NCBI RefSeq assembly: GCF_030453185.1
Contig: NZ_JAKDKW010000019.1
Coordinates: 1 to 33,213, forward strand
Source of the DNA: Yaniella sp.
Lineage (GTDB): Bacteria > Actinomycetota > Actinomycetes > Actinomycetales > Micrococcaceae
DNA length: 33,213 bases
Direction of reading: 5' to 3'
The notes under the pieces were generated by a model. It did not search any database, was not told the DNA's origin, and saw only the letters and a program-made list of their open reading frames with translations. Positions 1 to 5,308 of this stretch are shown piece after piece. The number at the start of each line of letters is the position of its first letter. The stretch's first letter is position 1. A program made the translations under genes and the position numbers.

Positions 1-780
1 GGTTTCTCACTGTTCGGCTCATTGCTTCCGGACGCGTTGAGCCCGTTCATTACACAGGTGGCCTGGTGGGCCATATTCGGGATGGTCCTTGGTATCTTGC
101 TGGCACTTACCGGCCCGCGGTTTCTGCATGAAGCGGAAACGACGGTTGTCTCTTCTCCGGTGGCAGGCCGCTGGCTGGCGCTGAATAGTCCGGCCACCAA
201 AACCCCGAGTCACGGTGTTCGGGCATACGGTCAAACCTATGCCATTGACCTGGTCTATGAACCGGATGGACACGAACGTCCCAGATTCGGTGTGGGGCCA
301 GCAATGCGTCCACCCCAGCAGTATCCGGCGTTCGGCGAAGCCGTGCATTCAATGGTCAGCGGCACGGTAGTTCGGGCATCAGCGTGGCATCGCGACCACA
401 GGTCCCGTTCCAAATTGTTGGCGCTCATCTACATGATGTTCGAAGGCACCATTCGAGAATTGGGTGGGCCCGGCTTTATTCTCGGCAACCACGTAGTGGT
501 TCGAAGCGATGAGGGGCTCTACGCAGTGACTGCGCATTTGCAGCAAGGTTCAACTCTGGTGAGTTCCGGGGAGACGGTTGTAGTAGGCCAACTGATTGGG
601 CGTTGCGGAAACTCCGGTAACAGCAGTGAACCTCATGTGCACTGCCACCTCATGGATAGGGCTTCGCTATTTCGCGCCATCGGGCTACCCATGATGTTTG
701 ACAGCATCGTCCTTGACGATCAACTGAACCCCGTCAACGCTTTGCCAAAAGATGGTCAACACATGACCGCAAATCGGTGA
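1..780 (+). CDS. M23-family (LytM-like) peptidase-domain membrane protein, 5' end outside window
   Basis: The frame is open from base 1, so the N-terminus lies upstream; a TTG at 22 could start it but has no convincing ribosome site. A hydrophobic segment (about residues 10-30 counted from the TTG) suggests a membrane anchor. The rest looks like a beta-rich M23/LytM fold: a histidine in SHGVRAYGQ followed by QTYAIDLV carrying the Asp, then AHLQQGS, and the C-terminal zinc-ligand motif HVHCHL. This pattern matches the M23 subgroup with a QxYAID motif. In the family these are zinc endopeptidases that cut peptidoglycan cross-links, or inactive regulators. The key His/Asp/HxH residues seem present, so activity is possible. 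It converges on the desaturase gene with only 24 bases between them. Family assignment is fairly sure; substrate is unknown. Confidence 0.7.
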   Translation, partial: GFSLFGSLLPDALSPFITQVAWWAIFGMVLGILLALTGPRFLHEAETTVVSSPVAGRWLALNSPATKTPSHGVRAYGQTYAIDLVYEPDGHERPRFGVGPAMRPPQQYPAFGEAVHSMVSGTVVRASAWHRDHRSRSKLLALIYMMFEGTIRELGGPGFILGNHVVVRSDEGLYAVTAHLQQGSTLVSSGETVVVGQLIGRCGNSGNSSEPHVHCHLMDRASLFRAIGLPMMFDSIVLDDQLNPVNALPKDGQHMTANR

Positions 781-804
781 GACGACTCGCCAAGTGCGGG
801 AAGT

Positions 805-1920
805 CTAGCGGGGGCGGAACTCGGAAACCATCGGGCATTCCATGGGATCAGCGTAGCCCAGGCCAACCCTGTTGAGATATTTGACGACGATCGCATATGA
901 CTCAATGAGGCCGGCCTCCGTGTAGGGGATGCTGCGCTCTTCACAATGCTGGCGAACCATCGGCTGTACTAGCGGTAGATGGGCGCTTGGCATTCGAGGA
1001 AACAGGTGGTGTTCAATCTGATAATTTAGGCCACCCATTGCCCAGTCGACGACCTTGCCACCGCGAATATTGCGCGAGGTCAACACCTGACGGGATAAAA
1101 AGTCGATTTTGGAATCATGGGGGATCAGCGGCATACCCTTGTGGTTGGGAGCAAAGCTGCCACCCATATATACACCGAACACGAGGAGCTGCACGCCCAT
1201 GAAGGCTGAACCAAGACCCGGGCCCAGGACAACCAGCACGAGTAACGGGAAGCTGATGAAACGGAATGCCAACAATGCCAATTCGACGCGGCGATGCTTC
1301 AGTTTTCGGTTCTGTAGAACAGATTTCACGGAATTGTAATGCAATGCCAATGCAAACAGGCACAATAGCGGGAAGAACAGCCACCCTTGACGGCGAGTGA
1401 CCCACCCCATGAAGCCAGTACGCTCAGCTTCTTCAGGAATGAACACCAGTGCACCGGTGGCGATGTCGCCGTCCTTGCCCACGGTGTTCGGGTTGGCGTG
1501 GTGTCGACCGTGTTTGCGGGTCCACCAGCCGTAACTCAACCCCACTATCAGGTTGCCGCAGATGCGCGAGAACCACGCATTACGTTTCCCCGAAGAGAAT
1601 ATCTGCTGATGCGCTGCGTCGTGGGTCAGGAACCCCGCTTGAGTGAACAGCACGCCGAATAACGCTGCGACCGCCAGCTGCCAGTAGGTGTCACCCAGTG
1701 TGAATAACAGGGTAAACGCCCCGGCTAAGGCCAGGCCTAAGAATATCATTCGAGTAATGTATCGCCCGACGCGTCGCTGCATCAGCCCGGCATCTTTGAC
1801 TTTGCGAGAGAGCTCAAAAAAGTCACTGACCTGAGGGTTCTCGCCGGGTTGTTTTACTGTCCGGCGGCCCGTTGTAGTCGGCGTCGACTCGAGCTGTGAT
1901 GTTTCATATGGAGATGGCAT
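805..1920 (-). CDS. Membrane fatty acid desaturase (acyl-CoA/acyl-lipid type)
   Basis: Three histidine boxes define the membrane di-iron desaturase family: HDAAH (residues 100-104), HGRHH (137-141) and QIEHH (301-305), numbered from the ATG at 1920. The QxEHH third box is typical of front-end (delta-5/6-like) or linoleoyl-CoA-type desaturases, which insert a double bond into fatty acyl chains using O2 and electrons from a ferredoxin or cytochrome b5. Hydrophobic segments lie around 58-100, 180-195 and 215-255. No cytochrome b5 domain is present, so electrons must come from a separate protein. A TTG at 1938 would add six residues; I prefer ATG because the TTG lacks a ribosome site, though the ATG has only a weak AAGAG nearby. 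It lies 61 bases downstream of the sensor kinase on the same strand. Regiospecificity cannot be read from sequence. Confidence 0.88.
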   Translation of the reverse strand: MPSPYETSQLESTPTTTGRRTVKQPGENPQVSDFFELSRKVKDAGLMQRRVGRYITRMIFLGLALAGAFTLLFTLGDTYWQLAVAALFGVLFTQAGFLTHDAAHQQIFSSGKRNAWFSRICGNLIVGLSYGWWTRKHGRHHANPNTVGKDGDIATGALVFIPEEAERTGFMGWVTRRQGWLFFPLLCLFALALHYNSVKSVLQNRKLKHRRVELALLAFRFISFPLLVLVVLGPGLGSAFMGVQLLVFGVYMGGSFAPNHKGMPLIPHDSKIDFLSRQVLTSRNIRGGKVVDWAMGGLNYQIEHHLFPRMPSAHLPLVQPMVRQHCEERSIPYTEAGLIESYAIVVKYLNRVGLGYADPMECPMVSEFRPR

Positions 1921-1981
1921 ACTCTTGACGGTATGCAAAACAGGGCTGCTTTACATCACCCAGTAGAGCCAATTACACCCC

Positions 1982-3883
1982 CTACCGGGGTATGGCCTGG
2001 GCCTGCAATGGCAGCCTGGCGTACACTGCGAAACCACCAGTGAGCGTGGGCTTGGTTTCCGAAGACCCTCCCACTGCCGCGGTCCGTTCGTGGATACCCG
2101 TCAAGCCAAGACCCGAACCTGCCGACGAAACGTTTTGCACTTTCGGGGGCCCGTTGATGACGGCAATGTGCAACCAGTGCGTATGTTCATCGGTGCTGGC
2201 CAAAGTGACATTGACGTCGACCTCAGTGCCCGGCGCGTGGCGTAACGCATTGCTCAGTGCCTCTTGCACCGTTCTGTAGGCAGCGAGAGCGGTAGCCGGT
2301 GCTGTATTGCCAAGCAGCCCGTCGTGCGTTTGCTCGAGGCCGCGGTAGTGGATGACGGTTCCTGATGCTCGAGTTGCATCCACGAGGGCGTCGATGTCCT
2401 TTAAGTTTGGAGTCGGTGCGGTCGGGGCTTCGTCGTCGTTGCGCAGAATACTGAGCAGCATCCGCATTTCACTCAGGGCCTGTCGCGAGGAGCTGGCGAT
2501 TTCTTCAAATTCACGCTGAGCAGTCTCCCCGATATCCGGATTTCGATAGCGTGCAGTAGCAGCTTGAACACTGATCACTGACATACTGTGGGCGACGACG
2601 TCGTGCAATTCACGGGCAATCCTATTGCGTTCTGCTAGTTCCTTGCTTCGTCGATCTTGCAGGGCACTAGTTCGTTCGGCGGCCTGTAGCCGACCAGCAT
2701 TACGAATCCACATTCGGCCAAGGGTTGCCGATGCCACCGTACCGGCACTCACCGAAGCGAAAACAATACTGTTGCCCAAAGCGCCCGCGGGGATGTCCTG
2801 GGCGACCGCAAACATCACGCCAAGTGTCACGAGCACCGAGGCAGACCAGCCAGAAATCGCGTAGTACCAGGGCTTCACGAAGCCCACCACGATGAATACG
2901 GCACACTGGGTCAGCAGCACCGTCACCGGCCAAGGCCACACTGCTACACCCGCATCGGCAGTTAGCGCAATGAGCGCTCCTGAAGCAATCAACGATAGGC
3001 CCATTCCGGCCCAAGCCCAGCGCAGGGAGAATAAGATCGCCGCGCAATGAAGAGTCACCCATATCATGGCATCTAGGATGCCGACGGAATAGAACACAGC
3101 CAGTACAGGCCACCCGACGGCAAGCAGGGTGGTTGCCGCGACTCCGGCTCCGGCACGAGACCAGGCGGTAATGCTAAAAGACCGCTCAGGCGAAATGTCG
3201 GTCGCGTCTGGTGCAGTCTCGAATGTTTTGGTCCCCAATAGGGCAGCAGTGAGCGTTGCATCCAGCTTTGCCAGCCCGGCCACGACCGGTGCCAGAGTGC
3301 TAAGAAACACGATTCCGATCACAAAGTGTGCCCCTACATCGAGTAGATACTGAAGCACCGCGCCGTCTGGGATCAGCGCTGGCTCGGCAAGCTGCAAGAG
3401 CTGCATCACAGTGCGATCACCGGGTAAGTATATAGACCAGAAGAAATAGGTGACCCCGCCTATCCCAATCAATGTCCAGCTAAGCGTTAGGGCAAATGTT
3501 GCCAGCCGAAGGGGAAAAGCGAGGAGTCCTTCGAAAGCTAGATCCAGCCAGCGTCGAGGATCCGAGATGATGCGCAGCTTGCCGAACACCCCGGATGCAT
3601 AACGCCGATAGGTTACCGGTTCAACGCTTGCCCCCAGCGCCTCCAAACGCCTTTTGGACAGTGCCGCAAGGGACGATGCGAAAAGTAATGTGAGCGGCAG
3701 CAGCAGCGCTCCCAACCAGACCACCAGGGTTGCAACCGAAACCGTCGTCATGATCACCAAGACGGGGAAACTGATGAGCGTGATAGGGAACCCAGCGAGC
3801 AGGTACCAAACATGTTTGCCGAATCGACGGACAGCTGAGGACTGGCTCGTGCGGTCTTGAGTCTGCCTGGCGGTTCTGTTCAT
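1982..3883 (-). CDS. Two-component sensor histidine kinase with N-terminal sensor domain and HisKA_3 core
   Basis: The protein has 633 residues. About 390 N-terminal residues hold many hydrophobic segments, arranged as a putative Sensor-like membrane domain (about 25-230) followed by a second set of helices (about 245-390). A short coiled coil then leads into the HisKA_3 dimerisation domain, with the phosphoacceptor His427 inside ELHDVVAHSMSV. The HATPase domain follows, with an N-box (QEALSNALRHAPG) and a G-box (GSGLGLTGIHERTAAVGG). This is a NarL/DesK-class kinase that autophosphorylates on His and passes phosphate to a LuxR/NarL regulator, almost surely the one divergently encoded at 3978. 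The stimulus is unknown; the membrane-only sensor region and the downstream desaturase suggest a membrane-state signal (inference). The ATG has no Shine-Dalgarno, and a TAGAGT hexamer lies 7 bases upstream, so a near-leaderless mRNA is possible. Confidence 0.9.
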   Translation of the reverse strand: MNRTARQTQDRTSQSSAVRRFGKHVWYLLAGFPITLISFPVLVIMTTVSVATLVVWLGALLLPLTLLFASSLAALSKRRLEALGASVEPVTYRRYASGVFGKLRIISDPRRWLDLAFEGLLAFPLRLATFALTLSWTLIGIGGVTYFFWSIYLPGDRTVMQLLQLAEPALIPDGAVLQYLLDVGAHFVIGIVFLSTLAPVVAGLAKLDATLTAALLGTKTFETAPDATDISPERSFSITAWSRAGAGVAATTLLAVGWPVLAVFYSVGILDAMIWVTLHCAAILFSLRWAWAGMGLSLIASGALIALTADAGVAVWPWPVTVLLTQCAVFIVVGFVKPWYYAISGWSASVLVTLGVMFAVAQDIPAGALGNSIVFASVSAGTVASATLGRMWIRNAGRLQAAERTSALQDRRSKELAERNRIARELHDVVAHSMSVISVQAATARYRNPDIGETAQREFEEIASSSRQALSEMRMLLSILRNDDEAPTAPTPNLKDIDALVDATRASGTVIHYRGLEQTHDGLLGNTAPATALAAYRTVQEALSNALRHAPGTEVDVNVTLASTDEHTHWLHIAVINGPPKVQNVSSAGSGLGLTGIHERTAAVGGSSETKPTLTGGFAVYARLPLQAQAIPR

Positions 3884-3977
3884 GTTGGTTACTCTAGGGC
3901 CAATGCTTGGCTGGGCACATCACACTGCAGAGTGAACGTCACAGATGAAGCATGTTGTGGTGCGGTAGGTTTAAACC
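3884..3977. promoter_or_regulatory. Divergent control region between sensor kinase and response regulator, with a 10-bp palindrome
   Basis: These 94 bases must hold the promoters of both divergent genes. A perfect palindrome GGTTTAAACC (3968-3977) abuts the GTG of the regulator and could be an operator. On the plus strand GGTAGG (3964-3969) could serve as ribosome site; alternatively TAGGTT (3966-3971) sits 6 bases before the GTG, as expected of a leaderless start. On the minus strand TAGAGT sits 7 bases before the kinase ATG. None of the -35 elements is good. Autoregulation by the NarL-type regulator is a guess. Confidence 0.4.
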
Positions 3978-4703
3978 GTGTCTGAATCTCGATCTTCACC
4001 TGTTGCCCTACCTTCCTCATCTGATCCAGGTTCGGATGTGCGAGTGCTCATTGTCGACGACCAAGCGATGATCCGAGCAGGCTTTGCTGCTCTGCTGAAT
4101 GCGCAGCAGGGGATCGACGTCGTCGGGACAGCCGATGACGGTGAGGGCATCGTGGACGTCGTGAAACGCACCAAGCCCGATGTAGTACTCATGGATATCC
4201 GAATGCCAAAGGTCAACGGACTTGATGCCACCCGTCACGTGCTGGCTGAATCGGATGAGGCCCCGAGAATTCTGATGCTCACAACATTTGATGCAGACGA
4301 GTACGTGTTCTCTGCATTGCGGGCCGGGGCCAGTGGGTTTCTGCTGAAGGACGCAGCTCCTGAAGAGCTCGTGTATGCGGTAAGGGTTGTAGCAGCCGGA
4401 GACGCCCTACTGTCTCCGCAAGTCACCAGAACATTGATATCTGACTACGCTTCGCGGCCCGCGACACCGCGCACCGACAGTACTGTTGAAAAGCTGTTGA
4501 CCGAACGCGAACTCGATGTTGCTCGGTTGGTCGCCCGGGGGCACTCAAATACCGAAATTGCGGCGATGCTATTCCTCGCTGAACAGACCGTGAAGACTCA
4601 TGTCTCACGCATCTTGAGCAAACTGGATTTACGAGACCGCGTCCAGATCGTAGTTACCGCCTATGAAACAGGTTTGGTTCGGCCGGGCGAAGCGCAGTCC
4701 TGA
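3978..4703 (+). CDS. NarL/FixJ-family (LuxR-HTH) response regulator
   Basis: The protein has 241 residues. The receiver domain (about 21-140) has the acidic pair D27-D28 in VLIVDDQ, the phosphoacceptor D73 in VVLMDIRMP, the conserved Thr in MLTTFD and Lys124 in FLLKDA. A linker leads to a C-terminal LuxR-type helix-turn-helix (about 168-232: LTERELDVARLVARGHSNTE, then QTVKTHVSRILSKL). In the family, phosphorylation by a HisKA_3 kinase promotes dimerisation and DNA binding. The divergent kinase at 1982-3883 is the clear partner. The GTG start leaves about 20 low-complexity residues before the receiver; a GTG at 4038 would remove them. Targets are unknown; the neighbouring desaturase and the palindrome before its own start are natural candidates. 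Confidence 0.93.
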   Translation: MSESRSSPVALPSSSDPGSDVRVLIVDDQAMIRAGFAALLNAQQGIDVVGTADDGEGIVDVVKRTKPDVVLMDIRMPKVNGLDATRHVLAESDEAPRILMLTTFDADEYVFSALRAGASGFLLKDAAPEELVYAVRVVAAGDALLSPQVTRTLISDYASRPATPRTDSTVEKLLTERELDVARLVARGHSNTEIAAMLFLAEQTVKTHVSRILSKLDLRDRVQIVVTAYETGLVRPGEAQS

Positions 4704-4707
4704 CGCT

Positions 4708-5013
4708 CTAGAAACCGTTGCCGTGATCCCCAGAAAACTTGGTGAACAGATCATTGAGATCTGATTCAGTGAGCGTGGCTTCACGCTCAATCCAGGACTT
4801 ATACACCACCCGGATCATGTTGAGTTCTGGTGACAGCGTGGTGTTCACCCAATCGGACTCTCGGTAGGTCACAACCTCTTCAGGGGTCACGACGTCGACG
4901 CTGCCCTTATCTGGGTAATGATGTATGGCCTGAATAACTGCCACTGACTGGCCATCACGATAGATCAGTGTCTGACCTACGTTTCGATGGTCGAGCGTTT
5001 TTGCTTCGAACAT
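4708..5013 (-). CDS. Small hypothetical protein (101 aa)
   Basis: I do not recognise this protein. It has 101 residues, is acidic and soluble, with no signal peptide or membrane segment. The first ~60 residues look like alternating beta strands (GQTLIYRDGQSVAVIQAI, then VDVVTPEEVVTYRESDWV), reminiscent of a small SH3-like or barrel fold. The C-terminal part (SWIEREATLTESDLNDLFTK) looks helical. The ATG at 5013 is preceded by AAAGGAAA about 10 bases upstream, a passable ribosome site. It converges on the response regulator with only 4 bases between stop codons and is otherwise isolated, with its own promoter expected in 5014-5100. The good ribosome site and soluble composition favour a real gene; function is unknown. 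Confidence 0.6.
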   Translation of the reverse strand: MFEAKTLDHRNVGQTLIYRDGQSVAVIQAIHHYPDKGSVDVVTPEEVVTYRESDWVNTTLSPELNMIRVVYKSWIEREATLTESDLNDLFTKFSGDHGNGF

Positions 5014-5308
5014 TTTGAAAGATTTCCTTTAATTTCATTTCATTGGTGGACCCACGCCGGCTGCCTACACTACGAAACACGCTATTTCTATCTACTGCAG
5101 TGTCATCGTTTGGTCACCAGGGCGTAAGACCATGGAGTTCATCCTATGTGATAGAGCCGCGAAAATGAACGCCATAAGAGGCGCTTCTGCACATGGCATT
5201 ACGCATTTTCAAATCTCACGAACGAAGCATAGAACATCGCAGAGGGACCATACGATTTTGCACGTTGGAAACTTATGGGATATTGTTGTCTTCGTTGCCC
5301 AATGGCAC
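5014..5308. other. Intergenic region upstream of tRNA-Gly
   Basis: No gene is supported here. It should hold the leader and promoter of the minus-strand 101-residue gene at its left end and the tRNA-Gly promoter at its right end. An open frame beginning at 5132 runs through the tRNA and is not credible. No repeat or mobile-element trace was seen. Confidence 0.5.
5258..5286 (+). promoter_or_regulatory. Candidate promoter of tRNA-Gly
   Basis: TTGCAC (5258-5263) and TATTGT (5281-5286) are separated by exactly 17 bases. The predicted start near 5293 lies about 16 bases before the mature tRNA. Spacing is ideal; the hexamers are only moderate matches to the vegetative sigma consensus. Confidence 0.5.

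Follow-up and report, generated by a model that had tools for sequence, protein, structure and literature searches.

The window analysed here is the whole stretch of 33,213 nucleotides (nt) of contig NZ_JAKDKW010000019.1 (positions 1 to 33,213; RefSeq assembly GCF_030453185.1) from the actinobacterium Yaniella sp., whose genome comprises 2.58 Mb in 156 contigs. Our subject is a set of three of its genes, encoding a membrane fatty-acid desaturase, a membrane histidine kinase and a divergent NarL/LuxR-type response regulator, together with a predicted two-block operator before the desaturase (Table 1). The original prediction, made from the DNA alone, had placed these three open reading frames (ORFs) and a 61-base gap, and had compared the set with DesK/DesR of Bacillus by adjacency. 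ORF and Pfam checks confirmed the ORFs, their coordinates and the 61 nt that separate the kinase stop from the desaturase ATG, with all three ORFs intact and the expected domains present.

Table 1. Features of the desaturase, kinase and regulator locus, in window positions.
Feature	Positions	Strand	Description
Membrane fatty-acid desaturase	805-1920	-	ATG 1918-1920, 371 amino acids (aa); FA_desaturase PF00487 4.8e-42; HDAAH, HGRHH, QIEHH
Probable -10 box TACCGT	1928-1933	-	20 nt after block 2, 7 nt before ATG
Operator block 2 (predicted) GCTCTACTGGGTGATG	1954-1969	-	Two-block matrix and strict pattern
Operator block 1 (predicted) CATACCCCGGTAGGGG	1979-1994	-	Inverted repeat; contains kinase stop codon 1982-1984
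Membrane histidine kinase	1982-3883	-	633 aa; Pfam Sensor (PF13796) 4.7e-20, HisKA_3 1.9e-17, HATPase_c 1.6e-7
HisKA_3 domain, phospho-acceptor H427 in HDVVAH	2432-2632	-	Pfam; aligned with HDTLGQ of DesK
Core membrane sensor of kinase, aa 232-392	2708-3190	-	AlphaFold2 model mc2d506f45659: six helices
PF13796 'Putative sensor' region of kinase, aa 27-216	3236-3805	-	Pfam; optional N-terminal membrane add-on (likely)
Block-2-like element CTCTGCAGTGTGATGTGC before kinase	3915-3932	-	Weak alone; possible autoregulation
NarL/LuxR-type response regulator	3978-4703	+	241 aa; divergent from kinase; Pfam Response_reg 2.1e-28, GerE 4.2e-18

Evaluating gene order in a scan of 149 genomes of the family and a second scan of 396 genomes of the order (G000, G024 and G026 being common to both), we found that orthologues of the kinase and the desaturase adjoin in 5 of 8 own-genus genomes of the family scan, where G021 and G140 gave no desaturase match and G073 a distant match only, and in 5 of 6 genomes of genus g13, where G138 gave no desaturase match. 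The divergent cassette, with the regulator on one side and kinase and desaturase on the other, recurs in other families; it is present in Enteractinococcus coprophilus, Nesterenkonia aurantiaca, two Brachybacterium and Promicromonospora sp. AC04, as well as in the metagenome-assembled genome (MAG) Candidatus Brevibacterium intestinigallinarum, where the contig stops partway through the regulator. Amnibacterium and family f6 (genus g37) have a collinear kinase-regulator-desaturase arrangement on one strand, and in the order scan all 21 desaturases with E<=1e-150 adjoin a kinase by coordinates. Three genera (g24, g26, g28), which we call arthrobacter-type since they group with the Arthrobacter loci L041 and L043, carry the kinase apart from the desaturase, at 39-85 kb in the nine genomes with both genes on one contig. 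The adjacency anticipated across relatives is thus seen in divergent and collinear cassettes and is lost in arthrobacter-type genomes; this separation leaves the link intact, because the element described below precedes the distant desaturase in 17 of 20 arthrobacter-type genes.

Kinase and desaturase also occur together across genomes. In the family scan, a kinase orthologue is present in 28 of the 30 genomes with the best desaturase match versus 5 of 119 others (Fisher p 6e-23, uncorrected for kinship, which inflates every p-value). The desaturase cut of >=413 bits corresponds to the 30 best-listed genomes and has no gap behind it (413.4, then 410.9 bits), and the kinase threshold (>=150 bits) sits at a break in the list, where 150.1 is followed by 129.6. 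With the desaturase cut set at 500 bits, 10 of 10 genomes have the kinase (as do 23 of 139 others), and at 419 bits 27 of 28 do. The discordant genomes at the chosen cuts are two with the desaturase and no kinase orthologue (G035, G143) and five with the kinase and no such desaturase (G029, G034, G064, G102, G119). G035 and G143 lack both the kinase orthologue and the element; they are 95% and 99% complete, respectively, so that a missed kinase is possible through incompleteness and a missed element less so.

Comparing the gaps before desaturases revealed a two-block element, CnTACCnnnGTAGGGG-N8-10-GcTCnnnnGgGtGAyG, that spans 1954-1994 on the minus strand of the window and overlaps the kinase stop codon. 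We scored it with a two-block matrix seeded from 20 divergent-cassette promoters, including that of the window and those of its two nearest relatives; arthrobacter-type and collinear loci were not among the seeds. With own-genus seeds removed, blocks 1 and 2 reach a joint score of 28.8; no other place in the window exceeds 7.1, and 200 dinucleotide shuffles peak at 19.4. The scored set held 146 distinct desaturase genes after we dropped L001-L011 (repeats), L177-L228, ORFs shorter than 280 aa and entries with identical last 300 residues; L137, L145, L151 and L153, which have overlapping ORFs, were assigned manually to the adjacent class (A), and group T was defined by an element score >20. The element precedes 45 of the 48 distinct desaturase genes with adjacent regulator genes, with best upstream scores of 27.2-53.8 in the divergent cassettes (32/32) and of 25.9-46.2 where the regulator lies directly before the gene (13/16). 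Best scores in the 77 genes classed as 'without' are <=9.7, and the 21 class T genes score 26.9-45.5. As 20 of the 32 divergent cassettes served as seeds or closely copy one, the result for that group is in part circular, and the cleanest test comes from the non-seed arthrobacter-type desaturases L012-L031, where the element is found in 17 of 20 and a kinase orthologue in all 17 of these genomes. The element is missing before L017 (G143) and L031 (G035), the two genomes in which the kinase orthologue is missing too, and before L030 (G004). In G004 a weaker site (23.6) stands in front of the DedA/VTT gene that immediately follows the kinase (L120, 7930-8685), which would fit a possible switch of target from the desaturase to that gene. 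The functional link, originally drawn from adjacency, is strongly supported by gene order, by co-occurrence and by this element, which lies in the proposed interval 1921-1981 and reaches into the kinase end; the other proposed interval, 3884-3977, holds a weaker relative of it.

A strict form of the pattern, written after the arthrobacter-type sites were known, was then searched in whole genomes, yielding 1 match in the host genome, 22 in the 149 family genomes and 36 in the 396 order genomes, with zero matches of the reversed control pattern in the host, family and order searches. The family sites lie before the desaturase in 21 cases and once (G064) before an acyltransferase-3 gene behind the kinase-regulator pair, and those of the order lie before the desaturase (30), before an acyltransferase-3 gene beside the pair (4; G199, G291, G328, G433) or before the kinase (2; G328, G497). 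G328 alone has three sites, before kinase, acyltransferase and desaturase, the last on another contig. Over both scans, 48 of 55 distinct strict sites (51 of 58 listings) precede a desaturase. Degenerate sites are overlooked by the strict pattern: among the 33 family genomes with the kinase it fails to match in 11, six of which (G012, G054, G056, G093, G098, G125) carry a site before the desaturase that the matrix scores at >=29.8, the others being G004, with its weaker DedA site, G029, G034, G102 and G119. In Nocardioides luteus (L039) an element scoring 42.0 precedes the alpha/beta-hydrolase gene that comes after the regulator; the desaturase is encoded on the same strand, about 2.4 kb beyond. 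No element >17 was found near the kinases L112-L114 (genus g4) and L166-L169 (family f6, at other places).

Several further loci of these searches are recorded here as observations. Family f19 (probably Microbacteriaceae; L229-L232, L235-L237) has a kinase-regulator-acyltransferase-3 order with the element before the acyltransferase in all 7 loci, several of which also have an element near the kinase start. A gene that a one-sequence profile marks as DedA-like is located at the kinase start or ahead of it in L238 and L239. The g4 loci L112-L114 keep the divergent regulator and kinase, the latter divided between two overlapping ORFs, one for the PF13796 part and one for the remainder; L112 continues downstream with genes for a small SBP_bac_3-like and a cation-efflux protein, and same-sized ORFs are present in L113 and L114. 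The gap of the kinase-regulator-desaturase locus L173 contains a different inverted repeat, TTGGGTACTACCCAA, and after it GGGTGACG, possibly a diverged operator. Within the host genome, CTCTRCWGKGTGATGTRM, a pattern drawn from two sites of the window, matches exactly at those two only (3915-3932 and 1951-1968); up to 2 mismatches give 3 matches versus 2 for the reversed control, and by rough arithmetic about 0.2 such coincidences are expected, so that the likeness of the two host block-2 copies alone is not significant.

The spacing between element and promoter is fixed. TAnnnT, sought at offsets 16-24 after block 2, starts 20 or 21 nt after it in all 66 element-bearing desaturase promoters, and an ATG or GTG follows 6-7 nt after TAnnnT in all 45 cassette promoters, a position of the start codon that suggests leaderless desaturase mRNA in these cassettes. 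In 18 of the 21 other element-bearing promoters no ATG or GTG is present at 4-11 nt after TAnnnT. One regulator dimer abutting the -35 region and another some two turns further upstream would amount to an activator-type layout. We rejected the reading of kinase and desaturase as merely one operon, since an element and a -10 box belong to the desaturase itself. We also set aside the idea that block 1, which resembles a hairpin, acts as RNA; with the -10 box lying after it, block 1 should be outside the transcript of that promoter.

We also assessed the proteins themselves. The desaturase scores 144.9 bits against PF00487 (Pfam cut-off 29.7) and is the sole match to that family in the host genome (E<=0.001). 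Its structure model has a mean predicted local distance difference test (pLDDT) of 85.5, and Foldseek against the PDB gave 8xks_K as best match (8.8e-7), followed by FtAlkB (9e-4) and SCD1 (0.14); the best NCBIfam matches, DesB (45.5 bits) and DesA (36.7 bits), have cut-offs of 500. With the membrane fatty-acid desaturases of PF00487 it shares the three His boxes and the membrane fold, and it would unsaturate membrane-lipid chains. The three boxes that had been read from the translation are present as described, and the His of all three, plus the Q and E of the third, are invariant among 22 aligned sequences including that of the window. QIEHH had also been taken as a mark of divergence, which does not hold: it is ordinary among these homologues and so is no sign of divergence. 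An alternative TTG start at 1938 would give 377 aa; we prefer the ATG because of the position of the -10 box. In a quick tree with a midpoint root, the divergent-cassette sequences form one side of a branch (98 by the Shimodaira-Hasegawa-like approximate likelihood ratio test), and divergent, collinear and separated desaturases together form a 67-row group (support 95), to which Nocardioides luteus, two Jiangellaceae and G143 belong as well. A separate group of L058 (Agromyces), L233 and L234 (support 100) also bears the element, which points to independent recruitment. As a side observation, the desaturase of L037, from a MAG named Brevibacterium, is nested among Brachybacterium sequences, which may reflect a misnamed bin or gene transfer.

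The kinase model (AlphaFold2) is of moderate confidence overall, with a mean pLDDT of 68.4 and a predicted template modelling score of 0.38; in the core sensor, 13 of 16 ten-residue blocks have a pLDDT of >=75, the remaining blocks standing at 51, 59 and 63. It places six helices in residues 231-391 (model numbering is protein numbering minus one), the last of which continues to 446 as a helix (365-446) that would lead from the last sensor helix through a coiled coil into the histidine helix. Hydropathy gives six separate peaks in the short kinases L036 and L151 and, in other orthologues, five to more peaks that overlap. Model and hydropathy agree that the core sensor is nearly all membrane helix, which upholds the sensor of membrane helices originally described. 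A large two-part sensor had been proposed as a defining trait as well, a view that we abandon: the PF13796 half was undetected in L036, L137, L151 and L152 despite their identical gene order and neighbours, and in the collinear and arthrobacter-type kinases. The core is therefore likely the sensor and the PF13796 part likely an optional add-on. Both His of HDVVAH are invariant in 10 orthologues (H426 and H431 when the first Met is omitted). In the PDB the kinase matches five sequences (E<=0.01), all of them DesK, with a best value of 1.6e-5 and over the HisKA_3 part only; to our knowledge, few HisKA_3 kinases are present there. The regulator matches VraR (1.1e-43), NarL (2.5e-37), DevR (1.2e-33) and DesR (1.4e-33).

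Gene order, co-occurrence, the element and its fixed spacing, all read directly from these genomes, are best accounted for by a DesK/DesR-like two-component circuit for membrane-lipid homeostasis that probably activates the desaturase, a reading to which we assign a probability of about 0.72. From these comparisons we infer the regulator as the element's binder, activation and not repression, the signal and the substrate. The kinase would read a membrane property through its core of about six helices, and the last sensor helix, as a coiled coil into the histidine helix, would transmit that state to H427. The phosphorylated regulator would bind blocks 1 and 2, probably as two dimers, next to the -35 region, and would activate a promoter starting at or near the desaturase ATG; the desaturase would then unsaturate lipid chains and thereby remove the signal. 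Targets of the same regulator in relatives probably extend to the gene of its kinase, to an acyltransferase-3 gene and, in a single genome, to one of DedA type.

Among the closest known systems is DesK/DesR/Des of Bacillus subtilis, with which the window shares a HisKA_3 kinase with a membrane-helix sensor, a NarL-type regulator and an adjoining membrane desaturase. DesK has HDTLGQ where this kinase has HDVVAH, the Gln of DxxxQ being replaced by the His that is invariant in the 10 orthologues. DxxxQ after the phospho-accepting His is a phosphatase motif. The regulator scores higher with VraR and NarL than with DesR in the PDB, and the relatives of the actinobacterial circuit have further targets. 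VraSR/LiaSR offers a second comparison, VraR being the nearest regulator of solved structure; it differs from the present set, whose targets are lipid- and envelope-modifying genes. The excerpt of PMC11237406 models DesK with five transmembrane domains and describes DesR as an activator acting as a tetramer at the des promoter; the two-part site found here fits that P-DesR tetramer (PMC11237406, excerpt). The five helices of DesK stand against six core helices in our moderate-confidence model, plus the PF13796 region, and desKR lies directly downstream of des, an order that differs from ours (PMC11237406, excerpt). Conserved membrane prolines are given as a DesK feature in the part of PMC6879721 at hand. 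YvfT, BA5598 and SA1313 are DesK homologues and temperature-answering membrane kinases tied to ABC transporters, in contrast to the desaturase partner here (PMC7726353, in part), and the Bacillus system is cited by analogy for Arthrobacter in the portion of PMC4326396 seen. The circuit would, with good probability, operate as DesK/DesR does, and 'DesK/DesR-like' is meant here as a likeness in working, descent from that pair being no part of the claim.

Other explanations of the same observations were weighed. The circuit might control the desaturase in answer to envelope damage or a chemical (solvent, peptide, ion), with desaturase, acyltransferase-3 and DedA as an envelope-defence output. VraR/LiaR systems answer envelope stress, the regulator is nearer VraR than DesR, and acyltransferase-3 and DedA have envelope as much as fluidity functions; since the most constant target is nevertheless the desaturase (the 48 of 55 sites above) and the core sensor is nearly all membrane helix, we consider this reading unlikely while giving it real weight. 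Repression of the desaturase by the regulator, with release by the signal, would agree with block 2 abutting the -35 region, where repressors also bind. The fixed 20-21 nt to the -10 box with a second upstream site is, however, a usual activator layout, and DesR is an activator that forms a tetramer on the des promoter (PMC11237406, excerpt), which makes repression distinctly improbable.

It could also be that another regulator binds the element and that the two-component genes merely travel with the desaturase, given that the DNA-binding part of the regulator resembles that of many NarL-type regulators. This is hard to reconcile with a kinase orthologue in 22 of 22 family genomes with a strict site, with elements that also stand before the kinase or an acyltransferase beside the pair, with the joint loss of kinase orthologue and element in G035 and G143, and with a regulator no more than 1.5 kb from the kinase in all 81 kinase genes of this type among the fetched loci, and we hold it to be highly improbable. 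HisKA_3/NarL pairs are common in actinobacteria and the kinase has five matches in the host genome, so a chance adjacency without function can be conceived; contradicted by conserved order, co-occurrence and the element, it deserves hardly any credence.

Several observations weigh against the DesK/DesR-like circuit itself. The kinase-regulator-desaturase loci L173 and L241 score only 0.9 and -0.6 for the element, and L083 has a low-scoring regulator, an undetected kinase and no element. Three genus g4 genomes have the kinase, with neither a close desaturase nor a detected element, and the element copy at the kinase promoter is weak in the host genome. At a 400-bit desaturase cut the kinase is found in 28 of 40 genomes, leaving 12 of 40 without a kinase orthologue, and kinship of the genomes inflates all counts. 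A sigma-70 scan of 700-5100 gave no promoter-like site, with shuffles giving 2.5. With HDVVAH lacking the Gln, a DesK-like phosphatase step in this kinase is doubtful. In Rhodococcus sp. RCBS9, a cold-activated kinase was named DesK by its authors and desaturase genes were down at 10 C (PMC11617531, in part); a link of that kinase to a desaturase was not found in the examined text of the paper.

Between the regulator and a tRNA-Gly gene, positions 4708-5013 (minus strand) encode a 101-aa protein that gave no match in Pfam (E<=0.1) or NCBIfam (E<=0.01). The part from 5309 to 32279 is housekeeping in character. It carries genes for tRNA-Gly, tRNA-Pro and trigger factor, together with ClpP- and ClpX-like protease genes that were recognised from their translations. 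Also encoded there are two class I tRNA synthetases, a Mur ligase, RNase E/G, an Obg GTPase, a PUA-domain amino-acid kinase and a member of the aldehyde dehydrogenase family.

Taken more broadly, we lean modestly towards an undescribed membrane-lipid remodelling regulon spread across several families of the order, in which a HisKA_3/NarL pair would act through a bipartite operator on the desaturase (recruited at least twice, from different clades), on acyltransferase-3, at times on a DedA-type gene, and on itself; it would be DesK/DesR-like and yet separately assembled, without the phosphatase Gln. Among the open-access matches listed, judged by titles and the starts of abstracts, none describes this regulon or element in actinobacteria. 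In Bacillus, the way a membrane-sensing kinase governs lipid desaturation has been worked out in detail. The defined operator, the partner genes and the natural variants (with or without PF13796, adjacent or distant, with or without the kinase) make the circuit directly testable, and the system can address whether actinobacteria adjust their membrane lipids through a sensor kinase, what the PF13796 part contributes and how such a circuit gains target genes.

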